Source: Corallium rubrum
Taxonomy: Eukaryota; Cnidaria; Anthozoa; Scleralcyonacea; Coralliidae
Length of the DNA: 64,000 nucleotides
Assembly: GCA_964035015.1 (NCBI GenBank)
Contig: OZ035998.1
Span: 28,970,529-29,034,528 of the forward strand
Direction of reading: 5' to 3'
The stretch's first letter is position 1. The number at the start of each line of letters is the position of its first letter. Below, in pieces: positions 1 to 38,606 of this stretch. The translations under genes were made by a program, and so were the position numbers. Under the pieces are notes generated by a model. It did not search any database and was not told the DNA's origin. It saw only the letters and a program-made list of their open reading frames with translations.

Positions 1-2
1 TG

Positions 3-2222
3 GATGATTCACAACAGTCATCTAGCACTCCTCCAATTACCTTTGGTCCACATCAAAAACTCAGCAGAGGGGATGAAATGTATGCCATGAAAGAAGAATA
101 TAATATGGTGCAAGAAAGAAAATTTGTCTGCTCTCTTGATTTACTTCTTGCAGCATTTCAAGCTAGATGTCAGACACCTGGGTGTACTGCCTTGCCCAAT
201 ATTAAATATCACTTTGTCGGCATAACCCTTATTGTGAACTGTCTATGTTCATCAGGGCATAAATATAGATTTTGCACATCCCACCAAGTCAATGAGATTT
301 ATGCCAGCAATCTCCAGGCAGCTGCTTCAATAATTCTATCTGGAAGCCATTACGCAAAAGTAGAACGCATGGCAAAATTTCTAAATCTGGAATTCCTGTC
401 CAAGTCAACCTATTACAGATTCCAACGGCTGTATTTGGTTCCAGAAATAAACGAGTGGTGGTGTTGGATGAGGGGTGAAGTGATCATGGAATTTTCTGGA
501 AAAGATGTTGTTGTTGGTGGTGATGGCCAATGTGACTCGCCAGGGTTCAATGCCAAGAATCTTTGCTACTTTATGATGGAGGTAGAGTCAAATTATATTC
601 TTGACATTGAAGTCTTGGATAAGAGACATGTTGGCCTGATCTCCACAAATATGGAAAAAGAGGCAGTTCGTCGAAGTCTTGATCGAGTTACCAAAGAAAT
701 AAAAGTGGTTGAGCTGGTGACTGATGCATCCACATCTGTGAAAGCATTACTTGGTAAGTTATAAAATTGAAAAATTCAACTTGATAATCCCATCTTCATC
801 TAGGATTCGAGGTAATATATTAATATACATGAGATGGATACTGATTTCCTTCGGGTTTTCTTGACGAATCGAGATAGCACACAGGTTAGATAGCACACAT
901 ACAGTACAACTTGGTCTATTTATTTTATTGATGAAAATTACTTTTCAATTTCAGGATCCCAATATAAAGATATAGTGCACAGCTTAGATGTGTGGCACAA
1001 GTCAAAAAGTATTAAAAAATGTCTGGCGAAGGTTTGTATATTAGACACATGATTTAGCATAGAAAACAACTTGAGGGCACTCAGATACTGCATACCCCTC
1101 CCAACACATTAAGTCAAGTAGTATATAGTATTAATATCAACTTACAGTAGCGTGATGTGGATTATAGTTGGGTAAACCAAAGGCGATGCAAAAGATTAAG
1201 GATTGGTCATCTCATATCATCAGACATTTCTGGTACTGCTCCAGTGAATGCCGACAAGATGATGCCACCTCTGACGATGAAGCACTAAGACTTATGAAGG
1301 TATTTATTTGCTTAATTGTTTGTGCACTACTAAGTAGAAATTCACCAACAAAGGTGGTTGTTAATTTTTTTATTTGTTTCATATTTGTTTAGGATAAATG
1401 GATTGGATTGCTGCATCATATTTGCAACGATCACCAGTGGCTTGGGGGTCAATGTGACCATGATGATGATGATAACCATGATGAAAGTCTCTCCTGGTTT
1501 GATCGTCGCGATAAAGACTTCATCGAACTGCAAAAGGTCATTTTGAATCCAGACCTACTTGCCAGTTTCAAGTACTATACCCGTTTCAGGTAAGGTAAAA
1601 ATGAATTGTCTGCTTTTCTTGTACTTTCACCAATTTTAGCCAATAATGTCATAATTTACATGTACCAAAAACCAAGTGGAGTAAATGGAAGTTTTTGATA
1701 TTTTAACTGTTGTAGGCATACTGGTGGTATCGAGTGCGCAAACAGTCTTGGTTTGGTTTACACTCCAAAGCGAACACCTTTCAAGTAAGTTTTTGTCCAG
1801 CAAAAAGTTTTATATGGTCAAATGCTGAATACTATTTTACTGGGAAATAATCTTTAAAATTGCAAATTTTTAGGTATCAAGTATACAAAGCAAGGCGACA
1901 ACTAACAGCCATAGACTGGAATTTCCATCTTGGCCTTAAACAGATGAAATCGCAGTCTGGTGAGGATATGGTGACAAGAAAATATAACCCCAGAACCAGA
2001 GAGTGGGATATCAAAAAAGTGAAATGTGCAAAAGGTTATGAATATATCCCATTGCTAATTTCGCATGTGTTAAGGAAGAGAGTTATGGATGTTGATGGCG
2101 TTACACAAACGGTTGATCTAAATAAGAGTGACCCTTCCCTTATTTCGCCAACCATTGCTCATGTACCACCACCACCTACAAAGGAAATTGCTGCCAGAAG
2201 AAGCAGATTTGTAAGAAAGTAG
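3..2222 (+). CDS. Transposase-like gene (GDG/DSPG family), 5' partial, six exons
   Basis: Six exons join without a stop: <3-753, 955-1031, 1168-1299, 1393-1589, 1716-1784, 1874-2222. Every intron is GT-AG and the phases match (1, 0, 0, 2, 2). The frame is open to base 3, so the N-terminus lies outside the window. Visible features are a cysteine-bearing segment (CQTPGC), the block GGDGQCDSPG, then LVTDAS, SLDVWHKSK, a histidine/tryptophan stretch, HTGGIECANS and a basic tail ending RRSRFVRK. The order D (GGDG), D (LVTD), D (DVWH) and E (GGIE) fits an RNase-H-fold DDE/D transposase. From memory, related multi-copy proteins occur in cnidarian and fish genomes; no search was run. No frameshift or stop is seen, so this copy looks functional. 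It converges on the ballast-domain gene at 3697-5405, and a degraded locus at 35.4-38.6 kb repeats that pairing. It could instead be a domesticated host gene. Confidence 0.72.
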
Positions 2223-2310
2223 ACAGATATGGAGACTTTAAAACTACAATATGCTTTCAATAAATTCCAGTTGGTAATGCAGCGTGAGATATCTTCTCTA
2301 CTATATTGAC

Positions 2311-2450
2311 CCTTTAACCTATTAACTGGCAGTACTCTTCCACTGACAAGTAAAATCATCTGGCATTAGACAGAGTAAAATACTCTGGCGCTAGACAGTA
2401 AAATACTAAAGTAGGTGCATCTGGGTGCATTGCCAGATAATGGGTTAACA
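2311..2450. repeat. MITE-like element, TTAACC/GGGTTAA ends, copy 1
   Basis: It begins TTTAACCTATTAACTGGCAG and ends with the imperfect inverse ...GCCAGATAATGGGTTAA. Inside is the phrase 'aaaatcatctggcattagacagagtaaaatac' in variant form, which recurs at 2471-2583, 8993-9095 and (reversed) 43660-43722. It has no coding capacity. Confidence 0.6.
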
Positions 2451-2470
2451 AGAGATACTGGCAGATAGTT

Positions 2471-2583
2471 GTTAACTCATTAACTGGCAATACTCTTCCA
2501 CTGACGAGTGAAATCGTCTGGCATAGACAGAGTAAAATACTACAGTAGGCGCATCGGGGAGTATTGCTAGCTAATGGGTTAAA
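2471..2583. repeat. MITE-like element, same family, copy 2
   Basis: TTAACTCATTAACTGGCAAT at the left is mirrored by ATTGCTAGCTAATGGGTTAA at the right. It lies directly after copy 1 in the same orientation, giving a short head-to-tail pair downstream of the transposase-like gene. Confidence 0.6.
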
Positions 2584-2789
2584 TGTAAATATTTTGTTGA
2601 CTTTTTTGGTAATTTTTGGGGCTTGTAAATTAATTAAATATAAGAATTTCTTTTCATATAGTGGTGACACTATTTATTAAAATGTTTCCCATGAAATAGA
2701 TATAATGTGCATTATATGTATTGTACAAAATTCAGCATTATATACAAAACAGTGGTAACTCTGAATATAAACATTCTATTGACATACTA

Positions 2790-2793
<4 letters not shown>

Positions 2794-2847
<54 letters not shown>
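2794..2847. repeat. (AT)n microsatellite
   Basis: An almost pure AT dinucleotide run abutting the tRNA-derived SINE pair that follows. Confidence 0.95.
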
Positions 2848-2849
<2 letters not shown>

Positions 2850-3372
2850 TAATATTGGGCATTTCGCTCGATTACATAGCATGTTCTAAGGATTTTAGGT
2901 GAAGGAAAATTCGAGCATAGAATATATACATTTTAAGACCAAACTGGGACCAGTTGCGAAAAATGCAACTACACAGGCCTTCCGGCAGGAATTGAACCCA
3001 CGACCTTGCGATTCTAGTGCAATGCTCTGACCACTGAGCCACGGAGGGCGTTGCCGAGAGCTTGATCGCGAGTTCTGTATATATATATAATAAGGTGGTA
3101 ATGCCAGGATTAGAATGAGGTATATTATAGGTAATATTGGGCATTTCGCTCGATTACATAGCATGTTCTAAGGATTTTAGGTGAAGGAAAATTCGAGCGT
3201 AGAATATATACATTTTAAGACCAAACCGGGACCAGTTGCGAAAAATGCAACTACACAGGCCTTCCGGCAGGAATTGAACCCCACGACCTTGCGATTCTAG
3301 TGCAATGCTCTGACCACTGAGCCACGGAGGGCGTTGCCGAGAGCTTGATCGCGAGTTCTGTATATATATATA
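2848..3372 (-). repeat. Two tandem tRNA-derived SINE units
   Basis: Two units about 281 bp apart start at 2850 and 3131. Read on -, each contains a tRNA-like core (about 2977-3049 in unit 1) with an A-box-like GGCTCAGTGG, a class-I cloverleaf spacing, anticodon-loop CTAGAAT and a B-box GGTTCAATTCC. Acceptor arms pair imperfectly. Each core is followed by a shared non-tRNA body and an AT-rich tail. The same element forms the array at 20140-21060. The conserved flanks argue against a working tRNA gene. Confidence 0.8.
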
Positions 3373-3373
3373 T

Positions 3374-3497
3374 ATTTTCGCTTACCTCAAAAGTCTGCAA
3401 CAGGCTTTTTCATCTAAAAAAGAATCTTCAGGCAGATTTTTTTTTTTTTTTTTTTAAATGAAACAGCCTGTTGCAGACTTTTGAGGTAAGCGAAAAT
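3374..3497. repeat. Hairpin MITE with about 39-bp arms
   Basis: The left arm starts ATTTTCGCTTACCTCAAAAG and the right arm ends CTTTTGAGGTAAGCGAAAAT, nearly perfect inverse copies separated by a T-rich loop. AT runs lie on both sides, with 3514-3559 being a second (AT)n. Confidence 0.8.
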
Positions 3498-3508
3498 CTA
3501 TATTTGCT

Positions 3509-3561
<53 letters not shown>

Positions 3562-3696
3562 ATAGTCAAATGTTCAAATCTATATAAAATATTCATACTC
3601 AGAGTTACCATTGTTTTGTATAGTAACCAAGTTTGGTGTAATGACTAATTCTGAAAATAGATATATTGTGCGCTGAGAATATTAAATTATACATTA

Positions 3697-5405
3697 CTAG
3701 TGTTCCCTATACCCCATGTAAATTCCAGTAATAGATGGAAATCGTTCCCTTATGTTCAATACAACACATGAAGGACAGACTCGTCTATTTCCTTTACCGA
3801 GATGACCATGGCGGGCAAGAATAAATTGTCTGTATGCTGCTTTTCGAAAAGCCCTGGTACTGCTATCTTCTCTGTCATTTCGTATGTCACTTGTATTCCT
3901 AATGCACAACTCTAGCACATCTGGGTCAAGACACAACTTTGTGAATCGAGAAGAAGATGTTATGCATTTCTTTAATTTGCAACACTTATTCTCAATTTCC
4001 TGCGGCATTGGGTGACATCTGCCACAAACACACCAATCTGGCACACCACCTGTTGCAGAATCCTGCACTTGATCTGGGTTCTGTGGGTTATTGGAGTCTT
4101 GGGTGGTTGGTCCACTGCCTGCCTGTGGTCTATCATCTGGTTGTTCAGTTAAGGATTGACCAAATTCTCCAAGATCTTCACTCTCATCAAGGTCATCCTC
4201 CAGAATTAGCAAGGTGTCAATATAATCCATGCTACCAATCCCTCTCCGTAAGCTTCGAATAGCAAGCTTCCTTACTAAAGCATCATCTAGTGTTGCGATG
4301 AAATCCTGAAATATGAAATAGATCTGGATGACATTTACAGGTCACTAAAATGCAGTACAGGTACAACATGGAGTACAGGCCCCTGCATCTAAACCCCTCC
4401 ATGTATCAGCCCTTCAAAAAATGCTTACGAACAAATACAAGCCTTGAGGGTATTGTCCGTGAATGGGGTGGGTGGGGTGGGGGGTGTTGTACCACCATCC
4501 AAAGAGTCTATACTTTATCTGTAACTGCCATAATATATATAACTCCCAAATTTGCCATTATTTTCAGTCCTTTCTATCATCAAATATACCTCACATTTCC
4601 ACTGCTGTGTTTACTGTTATTAGTCTGACACACTATAAAGTTGTATGTGTATTAATTTCACACAACACACGGTAAGACAACTGAGCATGCATTGGCCCTA
4701 CATTGGATTCCAAATACTGATCTCTTACTCTCTTTATGTCAAGAATATTGCACTAAATTCATATTTTTAGCATTTTTTGATAGCAAGGTTGCAAATTTAG
4801 AATTATATGATTGTATATACTAATACACACACACTAAAATTGAGTGCATCAGGTTACAAGCCTTGTTCTAAGAGGGGATAAAATTATATTTAAACCAAAT
4901 TTGATCGAACCAAATCGACACTTTACCTTTACATCTTTATGTTCCTTTTCCCTCTGTGCCTCCTCGGACTCAGCTGGATTGTGGCTTAGACGAAAGCCTT
5001 TCGCTCTGCCCTGCTTCGCACGTGTAGCTTTTCCGGCTGCTTGCCGTGTATTACCCCTGTCATCTCGCTCCCTTTCCGAGTTTTCTGCCATTGCCTAAAA
5101 CAAAATCACACAAGAAATCGTCAAATTTAAGGCTTTCGTATAATCATTGCAATAATTCCAATAATACATTGACAGACTTACCCTATTCTTGCAAGGTTTA
5201 TTGCGAGTACCGCAGTTGCATTCATCTGAACATTCAATATTACTCCCCTTGCAAGGACAGCCTCGAGTCCCATTTTCTTTTCTCTTGACACTGCAAGAAC
5301 TCTTACAATCGCAATGACTTGCCTATATAAAACGAAGTCATCGTCAATTCAACAATTCTCCTCTATACATGTATATGCAAATATATGCAAATTTTTACCT
5401 ACCAT
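3697..5405 (-). CDS. CXC-like cysteine cluster + P2X7 ballast-domain protein
   Basis: Four exons: 5405-5403 (the ATG alone), 5322-5182, 5094-4927 (a donor 6 nt earlier is possible) and 4305-3697. All junctions are phase 0 and GT-AG, giving about 306 residues. Exon 2 is a dense cysteine cluster (CDCKSSC, GCPCKG, CNCG, KPCKN) resembling CXC/tesmin-type or Msl2-type zinc modules. Exon 3 is charged and basic. Exon 4 has an acidic leader, then PDWCVCGRCHPMP, NKCC, FRKAAYRQF, GNRRVCPSCVV and IRERFPS, the signature of the P2X7 receptor C-terminal ballast domain, which in vertebrates binds zinc and guanine nucleotide. There are no P2X membrane segments, so it is probably nuclear or cytosolic. It converges on the transposase-like gene; a broken paralogue lies at 36390-38484. 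Function as a DNA-binding transposition partner is inference. Confidence 0.8.
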
Positions 5406-5880
5406 GTTGACAGTGTTTTCCTTCGGTTGCTTCGTTCCTCTGATGGCGGTAGGTTATTCCGATTGATTTCCGACAATTTACGAAATATCTCTGTTATGCC
5501 CAGAAAAAATGCGCACGGGGTGACACTGCTCCTTTAAGTAGACGCGTAAAAGTTGACAGCTACTGAAGCCGACTGACATACAACAGAGGTGCTAAAGGCT
5601 ATAATATAATCAAACTTGTAAGTCAAAATACAGCGCAAATGCAGTACTGATTACTGAAGTCAAAATGCAGTGAAAATGCAGCGCTGAAGTCAAAATGCAG
5701 CGCATATGCAGCGCTTTATTTTTGTGTAGATCTATATCAATGCGCTGCAGTTGCATTCAATATCGACAAAAAGTGCAGCGCATACTGTGTGGCGCATCTG
5801 CAGCGCATCTGCAGCGGATTTACAGTCAAGAAAAAGTCAAAATGCAGTTACCATGCAGCGCTGCCATTTCCGTACGGGAT
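5406..5880. repeat. Upstream region with degenerate tandem AGTCAAAATGCAGCGC repeat
   Basis: Upstream of the ballast gene's ATG. From about 5620 to 5870 the phrases 'agtcaaaatgcagc' and 'atgcagcgc' recur many times with irregular spacing. The part nearest the gene (5406-5620) should hold its promoter or an element end, but no motif is decisive. Confidence 0.5.
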
Positions 5881-6274
5881 ACAACAATAACCTAGATCAA
5901 ACCAATGGGGTCCTTGGTTGTTCTGTGTTAATGACTGAAAATAAGATTATCTGTTTGCTGCACAAAGCAGCAACTCAACCACTGTGTCTATACAGTATAT
6001 AATTAAGTTTTATAGTCACTTGCACTCACAGGAATGAGCAATAATGTAAATGTATGATGTACTGTAGGTTACTTCTCAGCAGTACTGTATTAATTAATAC
6101 ATATCTCCAGAACTGATCAAGAAATTTCTATATACAATGTAAAATCAAATAATTGAGAATTTCAGTCATATCAAGGAAAATTTATTCAGAGATTGAGGAC
6201 TCGATCAGGACTGCATAAAGAATTTAGAATATTAAGGTAAATGAATAGCTGGTACATTAGCATGATGTTCATAC

Positions 6275-6277
<3 letters not shown>
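5881..6277. other. Intergenic, nothing recognised
   Basis: AT-rich sequence without a supported ORF, tRNA, or inverted repeat. Confidence 0.5.
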
Positions 6278-6307
<30 letters not shown>

Positions 6308-6468
6308 GTTTTGTTTTGTTTTGTTTTGTTTTGTTTTGTTTTGTTTTGTTTTGTTTTGTTTTGTTTTGTTTTGTTTTGTTTTGTTTTGTTTTGTTTTGTT
6401 TTGTTTTGTTTTGTTTTGTTTTGTTTTGTTTTGTTTTGTTTTGTTTTGTTTTGTTTTGTTTTGTTTTA
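6278..6468. repeat. (TTTTG)n microsatellite
   Basis: About 37 almost perfect pentanucleotide copies, ending in TTTTA variants. Open frames across it (FCFVL repeats) are artefacts of the repeat. Confidence 0.97.
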
Positions 6469-7806
6469 TTTTATTTAATCAAGGTATATGTAAATTAAAT
6501 TTGTGTGTTTCATTACATCTATTGGAAAGAGTGGGACATTTCAAGACTGTGGAATAATTAAATGCATGAAAGCCTGCCGTCCATATTAACTGTATCCTCT
6601 TTCCTTCGTGGTAATGTAGTGACACTGGACTTTTTTTCAATATTACAGGTCAATAAAACCCTCCTAAAGTCTGGAGCCAGTGGTTAATATTAAATTGCCT
6701 CAAACATGTTCCAACCAACCTTAATTGCTACAGTCTGTATATCATCAATTATCATCAATCGGTCGATTCTGGCGCCTACAACACGGTAAGTATCCTCACG
6801 CATAGCCTTGTTTTCCATTTGTTTCTTTCCTTAGTAATTTTTGGATTTCATTTGTCAACGATTTAGGCGAAGCATGGACAAAGTAACCCTTTCACCATTT
6901 TTTGTTTTGTTTTATTTTTTTTGCTTTGATTTGGAATTTTGGACTGGGTATGAGTTGAGAAATTGTGAATTGTGAATATGGAAACTTTTATTCTATCGTT
7001 TTAGTGCAAATATGTATGTGTTGATCATCATCCCTCTATCAAAGTTATATAAATGTTTAAGTGATCTGTGCTGATTAAAAAGAGACTATAGTATTAAAGC
7101 AGTAACCACCCTCTACTATTGAGAATATGGACTGAATGGTAAGAGATTTATTGCAGTTTCTAAACAGAATTGTCTTCGTAAAGTTAACGGATTCTGTATT
7201 CAAACACAAATCCCTCATGTCTTCATATCCGTCCTATATTATAATCTTCTGTAGAGTTGCCTGTAAAAGAGGATTCCCTAACCAATAATTTTTAATTACC
7301 ATTCTATAGTTAAATATTCTGTGTTCTCTTCTGCTTTATAGGAATTCAAATCTGATATTACAGTCTGTATTTTCTTCTGTATAAACAAAAGTACTGCAAC
7401 AAGCTGTAACTATACTTACAGTCAAGTGCAATCATCATACAGTATTAGTGATTTTCATGATCAGGTAATAATTATGTAAGTAATTTATATGCACACTATT
7501 CCACTCACATTAGCACAATTTGGTGTTATAGTTAAACCAGATGTTCTCTTGCATGTGACTTTGCAATATATTGATATGCAACGTTGCAATTTGGATTGAT
7601 CATTTCAATCAGCAACCTGCAAACACTTTAATTATCACAATTCCTCAATGGGTTGCCCTAAAAATCGTTTTAAAAGCCAAACTTTGTTAGTGCGAAATTC
7701 TACATACTGCACAGTTAGAGCCATTTAATACCTTCAAGTATAACATCACATTTATGTGTATGCAAGAGAACATCCAGTTTGACTATAAATGATTTTTTGA
7801 CTACAC

Positions 7807-35345: not shown

Positions 35346-35495
35346 CATGTTGAAGGGTGTAGTCAATTTATAACGTTTTGGTCTACAGTCGGTTCTGCGC
35401 ATGTGCCAAGTGGGGGGCTCCACCGGAAATCGGTTTATCGTTCTCAGTCTAATCGGCTGTGCGCGTTGTTTACATCGTGTCAGTGCTCGAGGAAG

Positions 35496-35727
35496 ATGAC
35501 CGACGCACAACCTTCGACTTCGAATCCTAACCCTCAAGTCAAGACAAACGATACATTGAAAAGAGTACTACGCTAGAAGAGATGCCTCTAGAGTGTGCTT
35601 ACTTAATGCTTTTGAGAGATGGAAAACGGTAAAGTTAGAAAATAATCTAAAGAACGAACTCGATTTATACGCTGCTGATAAATCCATGTCGGACTCACTG
35701 ATTTTATTACTAATATTTCTTGAGTGA
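35496..35727 (+). pseudogene. Broken first exon resembling the transposase-like family
   Basis: An ATG at 35496 opens MTDAQPSTSNPNPQVKTNDT but hits a stop at 35574. Shifting frame at about 35563 continues YYARRDASRV, then LNAFERWKTVKLENN and a hydrophobic end stopping at 35725. The N-FERW-K segment recalls an N-terminal motif I associate from memory with the GDG/DSPG protein family. A one-base insertion would explain the break. No downstream exons of the family are seen between 35727 and 36390. Confidence 0.4.
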
Positions 35728-36389
35728 CAGTGTTTCCTAGGCATGCTGATGAGCCCTGATATTGGGTGAAATAGCTAAATACTATGGATCTATAAGTCAA
35801 CATGCTAATTCAGTGAGTAACTGTACTTGTATTGCATGTTATTTCACTTGTTTGTATATAGGGAAAAAAATATAGACAAACCATTCTCAATATTTCCAAG
35901 ACAATACAGATTCATGACCAAAGTTAAAAAAATTTATTAATTTAACTTCTCCAACTATTATTAATCTAACCCTGCTGGCTGAATATGTAAATACCAATAT
36001 AATCCATTGTTTAGTATCAATAGAATTACAGTGCAAGAAAAGTAGTGTTTTAATACCCCAGATAGTGTCAAAAAATGTCCATCTAAAATGAAGGTCTAAC
36101 ATTTAGGCAAACACTCTTCGTCAGAAAAATATGATTAGGGCCATCGTTCGAAACATCGATATTAGACCTTCCATTTCGATTTCTGATACACTGGTTGCTT
36201 ATATCATTGACTGTTGGGAATTCACTGACAAAAGTATGATATGTATACTAACATGTATATTATATATAACTATAATTTCGACATATTTGTCAACATATGC
36301 AATACATGTAATAGAGTGTGAATTCCTTTGTGTTAAAATACATGCAATGATATAAGCAGCACAGTACTGAAGAGTGTAGAAAATAGGAG

Positions 36390-38484
36390 TTACAAATGTA
36401 ACATATAAAAATATTCATAAATCACATGATTCATATTAAATCTTGCAGGCCTATACCCAGTGTATAAACCATTTGGTGAAGGGTACGGAGCACGTATAGC
36501 AACTATGCAACAACTGGGTACAACTCTCCTGTTGCCCCTTCCAAGTGACCATGTTTATTTTTGTTTTATTTTATTTTATTAGCTTTGCCAGTTACACATT
36601 ACAATTACAATTACAAAGATAATTATACAGAAAGAAAACATTTTGGCTGGGACACTGCGACAGCAAAAGCCAGTTACTGCAGGTCCAAGTTATAATACTG
36701 TCTATATGCTGCATGTTGAAAATTTTCATTATTTCGAACATAATTCAAGACAAGTACATCCTCACTATAGCACATAGCAATGTCTAAAACATTGGCATCA
36801 AGAATAAGCTGTTGAAAAGTGGAGTTAATGATATGCAGGGGCATGCTGTTCTGGTACAGCATTTATTTTCTTCTTGAGTGGGTATAGGTGTGCAGTGGCC
36901 ACAATAACACCATTCTGGAACATTGTTGTCAGGTGGGGGATTAGGTGGTTGTAGTCGAAGAAGCTCTAACACAAGCCTTCTTAGCATCCCAACATTTAGG
37001 GCTTCCACTAAGTTCTGAAATACGGAGATATTTTTCTATTAGTGGAAATTCAAGAAAACATGGGATATTATATAAACTTATCACTGCCACACTCCACATT
37101 GGTGTTGAGAAAACATGCAGCATGAAAGTTAGGTTTACTGTAGTTGTAACAACAAATGAATACTGTAAACTCACATAAACCCCATTAAGTACATTGATTG
37201 GTTACAATATTATTATTTATCAAGAATATCTTACCATTAATTGTTGTTTATAATTTGCCTGATTCTGAGCAGCATTCTCTGCACCATCCCTTCCTCTTGC
37301 ACCACCCCTTGCTTGTCCTCTACCACGTCCCCTAGCTTGTCCTCTACCACCACCCCTTGCTTGTCCTCTACCACCACCCCTTGCTTGTCCTCTACCACCA
37401 CCCCTTGCTTGTCCTCTACCACCACCCCTTGCTTGTCCACTACCACCACCCCTTGCTTGTCCTCTACCATGTCCCCTAGCTCTCCCACATCCTCTTCCTC
37501 TCCAACACCCTTTTCCTCTTCTTTCTTCTTCAGAATCCTAAAAAAGTAAACACACCATGCTAAATATTTATGATGTGCAAAGGCAAAACGCAACAGAAAT
37601 TACCCTATTTTCGCATTATAAACAAAGTATAAAACAAGAATAGCATGAATGAATTCATATTTATAAATACAAGTTGTTTTGATTATTTGACGCTTGACAA
37701 AAGCCATGATTTATCAACCTTCAACATTGCCCTTCATAAACAATCAATCTGAAAATATTCTATTTATACTTATAATTATGTAATGCAGCTGCTAAAGGCT
37801 GAAAATTACGTCTACTGAAACCCATACATACACTAAGTCTTTATTAAAAACAAAAACATTCAATATGTTTTTGACTGATGGAGGTTGAGACTGTATACAG
37901 GCTAACTTCGCGTGAATTTGTGGAGGAGAAATAACTAACGATGCATTTAGAATCATATACTAATATACAGAATGTTTTAAAGGAAATTGAACGACAAAAT
38001 CGACAAACACAGTCTGAATTATATAATCTCAACTTTGCGCGGATTAAGCCCAAATATTTAGCGTCACTCGCTACAAAGATTCCAGTCCCGATTTAGTCCG
38101 TTGCCCAGAAATAAATTACATATAGTTGGATACAAAAAAAAATAAACTTACCGCCATATCATATCTGAAATGCCGAGGTGTTTTCCCACTGTCGCTGTCG
38201 CTTTCTTGAACTCGTCTGTTGTTCATACATTGACCGAAGTCTTCGCCATGGCACGCGCTTGAACAAACATTTTTCAGACTTGTACAGGAAAAAAATTTCT
38301 GGCCCTTTTCTCTCAGACAGTGGCCACGACATGTGCACATAGTTATGTTATCGATGTTAGGCAATGCCACGAACTGTTCTACTTGACTGAATTCCAAATC
38401 TTCAAGCGAAGCTTTCTTCCGCTCTTCGAGTAAGTCAGCCAATGACGGTGAAAATACCTCGCGGCCGCATGAGGTGTACTTCAT
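36390..38484 (-). pseudogene. CXC / RG-repeat / P2X7-ballast gene, disrupted copy
   Basis: Exon 1 (38484-38152, 111 codons) starts MKYTSCGREV and contains CTCRGHC, then spaced cysteines up to GQCMNNR, matching the layout of the CXC exon of the gene at 3697-5405. Exon 2 (37537-37235, 101 codons, phase 0) is a tandem RG-rich segment (GGGRGQAR repeated) ending ANYKQQLM. Exon 3 starts at about 37014 (NLVEALNVGM) and contains VPEWCYCGHCTPIP and NKCC, shifts frame near 36830, gives LILDANVLDIA and AAYRQY, is split by an insertion at about 36555-36688, then resumes with HGHL and, after a 1-nt shift, GRGNRRVVPSC and YPSPNGLYTGY. At least two frameshifts and the insertion make the ballast exon non-functional, while exons 1 and 2 are intact. 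Confidence 0.75.
36555..36688 (-). repeat. Retroposon 3' fragment inserted in the ballast exon
   Basis: Read on -, a segment with CTGCAGTAACTGGCTTTTGC and GCTGGGACACTG-type sequence ends in an A/T-rich (TAAAA)n tail and separates AAYRQY from HGHLG codons that are adjacent in the intact gene. Similar sequence with a (TAAA)n tail is at 57795-58150. A 5'-truncated LINE or SINE tail is the likely source; ORF-bearing parts are absent. Confidence 0.6.
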
Positions 38485-38606
38485 GCTGCGACATTTATAT
38501 GGATCAAAACAAAAACGTAAACAAACCTTCGCACATGCGCAGAACCGACTGTAGACCACCTTTAAACAGTTCGAATCAATATTTCTGAAACCTGTGATTT
38601 TATGTG

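Follow-up and report, generated by a model that had tools for sequence, protein, structure and literature searches.

A recently multiplied two-gene transposon of Corallium rubrum, probably of the Kolobok superfamily, with a KolX protein carrying a P2X7 ballast domain and a CXC-like cysteine cluster

The Kolobok DNA transposons of Xenopus usually combine a TTAA target, AG ends, a DDE transposase, a THAP domain and an H2CH zinc motif, and THAP is a usual part of Kolobok transposases (PMC6004289; statements on this and the other cited papers refer to the passages available of each). In the Kol0 lineage, a second protein, KolX, has the ballast fold, and P2X7 is reported to have arisen by fusion with KolX (Kojima & Bao 2022, PMC9587614); the P2X7 tail would be a captured KolX domain. 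Ballast proteins are also known as products of ZCD genes, of which Rump et al. 2020 (PMC7016195) describe one or few (<10) per species and no large families, the string 'transpos' being absent from the available text. The DNA considered here is a stretch of 64,000 nucleotides from Corallium rubrum (the window, C8:28970529-29034528 of the 474-Mb genome; genome-wide searches were run on the same assembly). Its beginning is occupied by a transposon with two convergent genes, a transposase gene on the + strand and a KolX gene on the - strand. This is very probably a recently spread, apparently autonomous element of the Kolobok superfamily, of the KolX-encoding (Kol0-like) kind, which would move by the mechanism proposed below.

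The element resembles Kol0/KolX in its TTAA target, its RR..YY ends, a DDE transposase with C/DxxH and a zinc motif, and the second gene, KolX, with its ballast fold. It differs in that the transposase is without THAP and that KolX carries a CXC-like cysteine cluster, which is unmentioned in the available passages of PMC9587614. TTAA, the AG ends, DDE and H2CH are shared with the Xenopus elements, whereas most of their transposases keep THAP and KolX has no occurrence in the available text of PMC6004289.

Alignment of copies gives a transposon of 7,692 bp, both TTAA counted, of which 2,155 bp precede the window. Its right end lies at window position 5537, and not at 5405 where a sequence-only reading of the window had placed it. 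The parts that delimit the element in the window are:

1 to 5537, no strand: part of the element inside the window (left end at C8:28968374), from the alignment of seven near-identical copies and their ends
5496 to 5533, no strand: right terminal inverted repeat, 34/38 matches to the left repeat
5534 to 5537, no strand: right TTAA target-site duplication, from copy ends and uninterrupted sites

At the termini, TTAA is outermost and is followed inside by AGGAGC..., which gives AG..CT ends to the 38-bp inverted repeats. Besides the window copy, six near-identical copies were found, with 99.2-99.7% identity to it over long pieces. TTAA stands at both ends in five of the seven, each with different flanks; the copy at C8:15.6 Mb is without its right end and that at C1:4.08 Mb is without both. 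In the latter (L011, L012, L024), ~34-38 bp are missing per end, and a second KolX stretch lies in tandem ~3 kb off. The seventh other locus compared, C20, is a shorter relative of the element with TTAA at both ends.

Uninterrupted sites were searched for by joining the flanks of five insertions at one TTAA and scanning the genome, the best 40 of 2,872 candidates being scored. Among these 40, junction-crossing counterparts were found for three of the five joins, at 30 places for the window site, 9 for C1:70.05 and 1 for C49; since all 40 belong to these three sites, none was a counterpart of the remaining two joins. One counterpart per site was read; each crosses a single TTAA, with agreement at 64, 64 and 62 of 64 letters. 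A 19-base end motif, allowing at most one mismatch, occurs at 197 places in the genome and at 0 for the reversed control. The two-gene mobile element that the sequence-only reading had supposed is thus borne out by seven copies more than 99% identical, by uninterrupted sites, and by the 38-bp inverted repeats and TTAA duplications that the flank alignment it had proposed has defined. Some end motifs face each other ~0.4 kb apart (C1:4164252-4164701, C1:30837333-30837765); these are likely miniature derivatives of this element family.

The transposase gene is predicted to have 11 exons and 10 introns and to encode 779 aa. It starts ~2.06 kb upstream of the window, with exons 1-5 and the start of exon 6 before the window edge. 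The catalytic motifs D/D/DVWH/E noticed by the sequence-only reading are present; the six exons counted from position 3 are what the window leaves of the longer gene. The exons in the window are:

1 to 752 (begins 107 bp before the window), + strand: exon 6, with the zinc-binding region, the first Asp in GDGQCDSPG and the second Asp in VTDAS
954 to 1031, + strand: exon 7, with the DVWH (C/DxxH) motif
1168 to 1299, + strand: exon 8, predicted
1393 to 1589, + strand: exon 9, with the H2CH motif
1716 to 1784, + strand: exon 10, with HTGGIE, the third catalytic residue
1874 to 2222, + strand: exon 11, predicted, carrying the stop

The H2CH zinc motif, which lies between the second D and the E, reads HHICNDHQWLGGQCDH in exon 9, and relatives carry the same motif. 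The exon frames are stop-free in all seven copies, the splice sites having been examined in the window copy alone.

KolX is predicted to be encoded by 4 exons with 3 introns, giving 306 aa:

5403 to 5405, - strand: exon 1, the start codon, predicted
5182 to 5322, - strand: exon 2, with the CXC-like cysteine cluster at 5191-5313
4927 to 5094, - strand: exon 3, a basic linker
3697 to 4305, - strand: exon 4, predicted
3706 to 4182, - strand: P2X7 ballast domain PF20478 (P2RX7_C), with 7 conserved Cys

The four-exon gene ending in a ballast domain and convergent on the transposase gene had been recognised correctly: PF20478 matches with 97.6 bits (cut-off 23.5, E ~1e-27), and the closest solved chains are those of P2X7 (E 8e-14). 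KolX is intact in six of the seven near-identical copies; in the C20 derivative, exon 2 of the gene carries one extra base. In an alignment of 11 KolX rows, the 7 Cys are conserved in all 10 rows spanning them, the L030 row being partial and without the first three; the equivalents of P2X7 R546, Y550 and R578 are invariant. The 7 zinc Cys and these three residues are the likeness to P2X7 ballast/ZCD proteins (PMC7016195). The guanine-nucleotide site described there comprises R546-H547-R574-R578-K583 in the rat protein. As only the R546 and R578 equivalents are kept in the window KolX, and not those of H547, R574 and K583, a guanine-nucleotide role for KolX is left as speculation, prompted by P elements (PMC7776569). 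The P element transposase likewise combines THAP with an RNase-H transposase, and the guanine nucleotide cofactor is the sole parallel drawn; unlike a KolX that might bind nucleotide, its GTP domain is inside the transposase.

The pairing of the two genes is not confined to the near-identical copies. A ballast profile search, in which the best 150 of 325 candidates were scored, merged to at least 145 loci, and four transposase queries gave at least 161 loci after repeat rows of listed loci were dropped; pairing counts are lower bounds because only the best candidates were scored and the queries cover some lineages only. A transposase lies within 12 kb of 82 of the 145 ballast loci, and all 82 pairs at that distance are convergent, against a chance expectation of ~1 pair (1.07 with 140 transposase loci, 1.23 with 161). 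Counted from the other side, a ballast locus accompanies 81 of the 161 transposase loci; in the window's own lineage, the proportion is 31 of 35 (35 hand-picked as most window-like). The search for neighbouring convergent copies had been suggested by the sequence-only reading, which held that single-copy genes syntenic across cnidarians, or ballast genes showing no association with the transposase or inverted repeats, would speak against it; both genes are multi-copy, and TTAA-bounded inverted repeats enclose the pair in the window element. That at least 82 of 145 ballast loci adjoin a transposase in this genome contrasts with the published small host gene sets, as do the at least 145 ballast loci themselves in this one genome, compared with <10 ZCD genes per species (PMC7016195).

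Internally deleted relatives also occur. L028, L037 and L038 are TTAA-bounded and 2.39-2.44 kb long; both terminal parts of the transposase coding sequence and the KolX exons survive in them, and the catalytic core is gone. The ballast exon is open in L028 and L038 and frame-shifted in L037. L018 is a 2.85-kb derivative. Elements left with the transposase alone would be under-counted, because the deleted relatives were found through the ballast search.

Six lineages were compared, named window, C299, C23, C2, C22 and C273, of which C299, C22 and C273 were read as exon pieces. D, D, DVWH, H2CH and E are kept in all six, with pairwise transposase identities of 26-68%. The transposase and KolX trees, built on six taxa and with a partial transposase block for C299, C22 and C273, have the same topology, (window, C299), (C23, C2), (C22, C273), with support of 82-100. 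These matching trees suggest, short of proof, that KolX works together with the transposase. The C23 element is 4.0 kb long, with TTAA ends, GG..CC and 20/20 terminal letters matching. THAP precedes the transposase in C23, C2 and C22, and C273 has a THAP fragment (E 0.003, below a Pfam call); none was found in the window and C299 stretches. In the window and C299 lineages, where THAP is missing, the transposase starts with a short exon (L009:7937-8169, L035:77-346) that reads roughly K-x-Y-L ... W ... SD ... LL, the likeness of the two exons being one seen by eye.

The CXC-like cluster is distributed differently. A cysteine-pattern scan of 19 stretches gave 10 matches, eight of them in KolX, towards its N-terminus (the window, C299 and loci related to these), and the others at the transposase C-terminus, in C22 and C273. 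No cluster was found in the other nine stretches, including C23, C2, C20, L036, L039 and a damaged second pair in the window, the CXC exon being broken, missing or beyond the stretch scanned in the last four. The module is thus carried by the N-terminus of KolX in the lineages in which no THAP was found (window, C299), by the C-terminus of the transposase in C22, which has THAP, and in C273, which has the THAP fragment, and by neither protein in C23 and C2. Genome-wide, 61 of 70 KolX-type CXC exons have a same-strand ballast locus within 7 kb downstream. The C22-type cluster has eight genome matches, four of them close copies, each on the transposase strand of its element, and four weak ones elsewhere. 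PF03638 (Tesmin/TSO1 CXC) aligns with the C22 transposase tail below the cut-off (E 0.051, 14.3 bits, cut-off 23.5) and has no match in the C273 tail. The similarity between KolX-type and C22-type clusters is weak (E 7e-4 in a two-sequence comparison), which makes a common origin plausible rather than established; chance cysteine matches call for caution.

In the proposed mechanism, a transposase of the DDE RNase-H type would excise the element at its TTAA-flanked inverted repeats, and the excised element would be pasted into a new TTAA, duplicating the target; this cut-and-paste mode is inferred from family and motifs. KolX would take over some of the end-binding where the transposase is without THAP. 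Chances are about even that KolX belongs to the transposition complex as a subunit; its CXC-like zinc cluster would then contact DNA and its ballast fold hold the transposase or a nucleotide. This role is suggested by the shared tree, the fixed pairing and the position of the module. A more far-reaching version is advanced tentatively and with less than even confidence: the zinc module would have moved between the transposon's two proteins, KolX would be a complex subunit sharing end recognition, and the P2X7 ballast would be a domesticated part of the complex, its guanine-nucleotide site perhaps the relic of a cofactor role such as GTP has in P elements. The sequence-only reading correctly assigned the ballast protein to a transposon and the P2X7 tail to a mobile origin, the accessory function that it gave the protein being a candidate role; both conclusions on origin are not new, having appeared in 2022 (PMC9587614). 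Among the papers searched, a review also names Kolobok and P2X7, once each. Two things here may be novel, a variant that has CXC and is without THAP, and the switch of the module between the partner proteins: no report of a Kolobok with a CXC arrangement was found in the literature searched, the supplements of PMC9587614 aside. With its open frames and recent multiplication, this two-gene family lends itself to direct tests of what KolX does, and so of what the P2X7 ballast did ancestrally.

Several observations weigh against the Kolobok assignment and the pairing with KolX. THAP was found neither in the 779-aa transposase by Pfam nor in the element by tblastn. PF03638 gives no KolX match at E<=10; of the CXC-like cluster claimed by the sequence-only reading, the cysteine spacing stands, and by that spacing it may be called CXC-like. 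The exon models of both genes are predictions, and the Kol0-like label is provisional, given by the ballast fold of KolX as seen in its sequence. The C1:87.7 Mb copy has lost one base where KolX exon 3 ends, a frameshift provided that the splice site is unchanged. At 12 kb, 63 of 145 ballast loci and 80 of 161 transposase loci are unpaired, and extension to 20 kb gives 84 convergent neighbours and one on the same strand. Eleven loci that were unpaired when chosen were inspected (L018, L028, L029, L031, L032, L036-L041): L029, L031 and L032 carry divergent transposases and are counted as paired in the 82 of 145. Nine of the 63 unpaired ballast loci were inspected; five are elements with internal deletions in which transposase pieces are clear (L018, L028, L037, L038, L039), two have a weak N-terminal transposase match only (L041, E 0.004; the damaged pair of the window, E 0.001), and no transposase was found in the stretches retrieved for L036 and L040. 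L030, inspected as one of the 80 unpaired transposase loci, has a KolX missed by the ballast profile.

Another superfamily, Mutator-like or piggyBac, is very unlikely for this element. Pfam does label the transposase Mutator-like, with a weak PF20700 match (30.5 bits for the window part, 29 bits for the full prediction, cut-off 26.5), which also speaks against Kolobok, and piggyBac also duplicates TTAA, a few piggyBac families encoding a protein like the C-terminal part of KolX (PMC9587614). However, a 4-bp TTAA duplication, 5'-RR..YY-3' termini (here AG..CT), a DDE transposase with DVWH as its C/DxxH, and H2CH are together the published Kolobok set (PMC9587614, PMC6004289), and all are present here; THAP, usual in Kolobok without being universal, is absent. 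That both are host genes, neighbours by chance, would fit their open multi-exon structure, and is hardly credible: a host gene pair was rejected on the seven near-identical copies, the TTAA-bounded inverted repeats and the uninterrupted sites.

The role of KolX leaves more latitude. Within the same transposon, KolX could work without joining the transposition complex: it might regulate transposase expression, counteract silencing or serve in nuclear trafficking. The ballast domain is not known to contact DNA, and the ballast exon can stay open in relatives whose core has been deleted (L028 and L038, in contrast to the frame-shifted L037), as might be expected of a factor useful in trans. This retention may, however, reflect recent spread of the family, the copies having been found via the ballast search; either partner can carry the CXC-like cluster, and both proteins share one tree. 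A role outside the complex is a real possibility, held less likely than not. KolX could also ride along as a passenger and contribute nothing to transposition, and four of the 35 window-lineage transposase loci are indeed without a ballast match within 12 kb, one of them with a convergent ballast 20 kb off and one with a nearby KolX-type CXC exon. A mere passenger is improbable, as the fixed orientation is kept across lineages whose transposases are 26-33% identical and the zinc Cys are conserved.

The sequence-only reading had seen the same pairing, damaged, at 35380-38557. The pair is real and strongly decayed, and it belongs to another KolX lineage than the window element. No catalytic core was found in it with the transposase queries used, and no inverted repeats above chance at 35-38 kb (best 11/20). 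The pieces recognised are:

35560 to 35685, + strand: remnant of the transposase N-terminal exon, other lineage (E 0.001)
36438 to 37014, - strand: ballast exon of KolX, damaged and in pieces, from that other lineage
38146 to 38409, - strand: CXC-like KolX exon of the damaged pair (E 9e-18)

The space separating the two genes of the element at their 3' ends holds a pair of direct repeats resembling short interspersed elements (SINE-like), which is matched in all six other near-identical copies:

2838 to 3372, no strand: two ~250-bp direct repeats, ~98% identical, SINE-like
2976 to 3048 and 3258 to 3331, - strand: tRNA-Ser-like stretches, one inside each repeat

Just outside the element, a long simple repeat of the (TTTTG)n type occupies window positions 6186-6498. 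Elsewhere in the genome, at L006 (C39:3054865-3057111), a longer ballast match is succeeded by five partial ones, spaced 375 bp apart.

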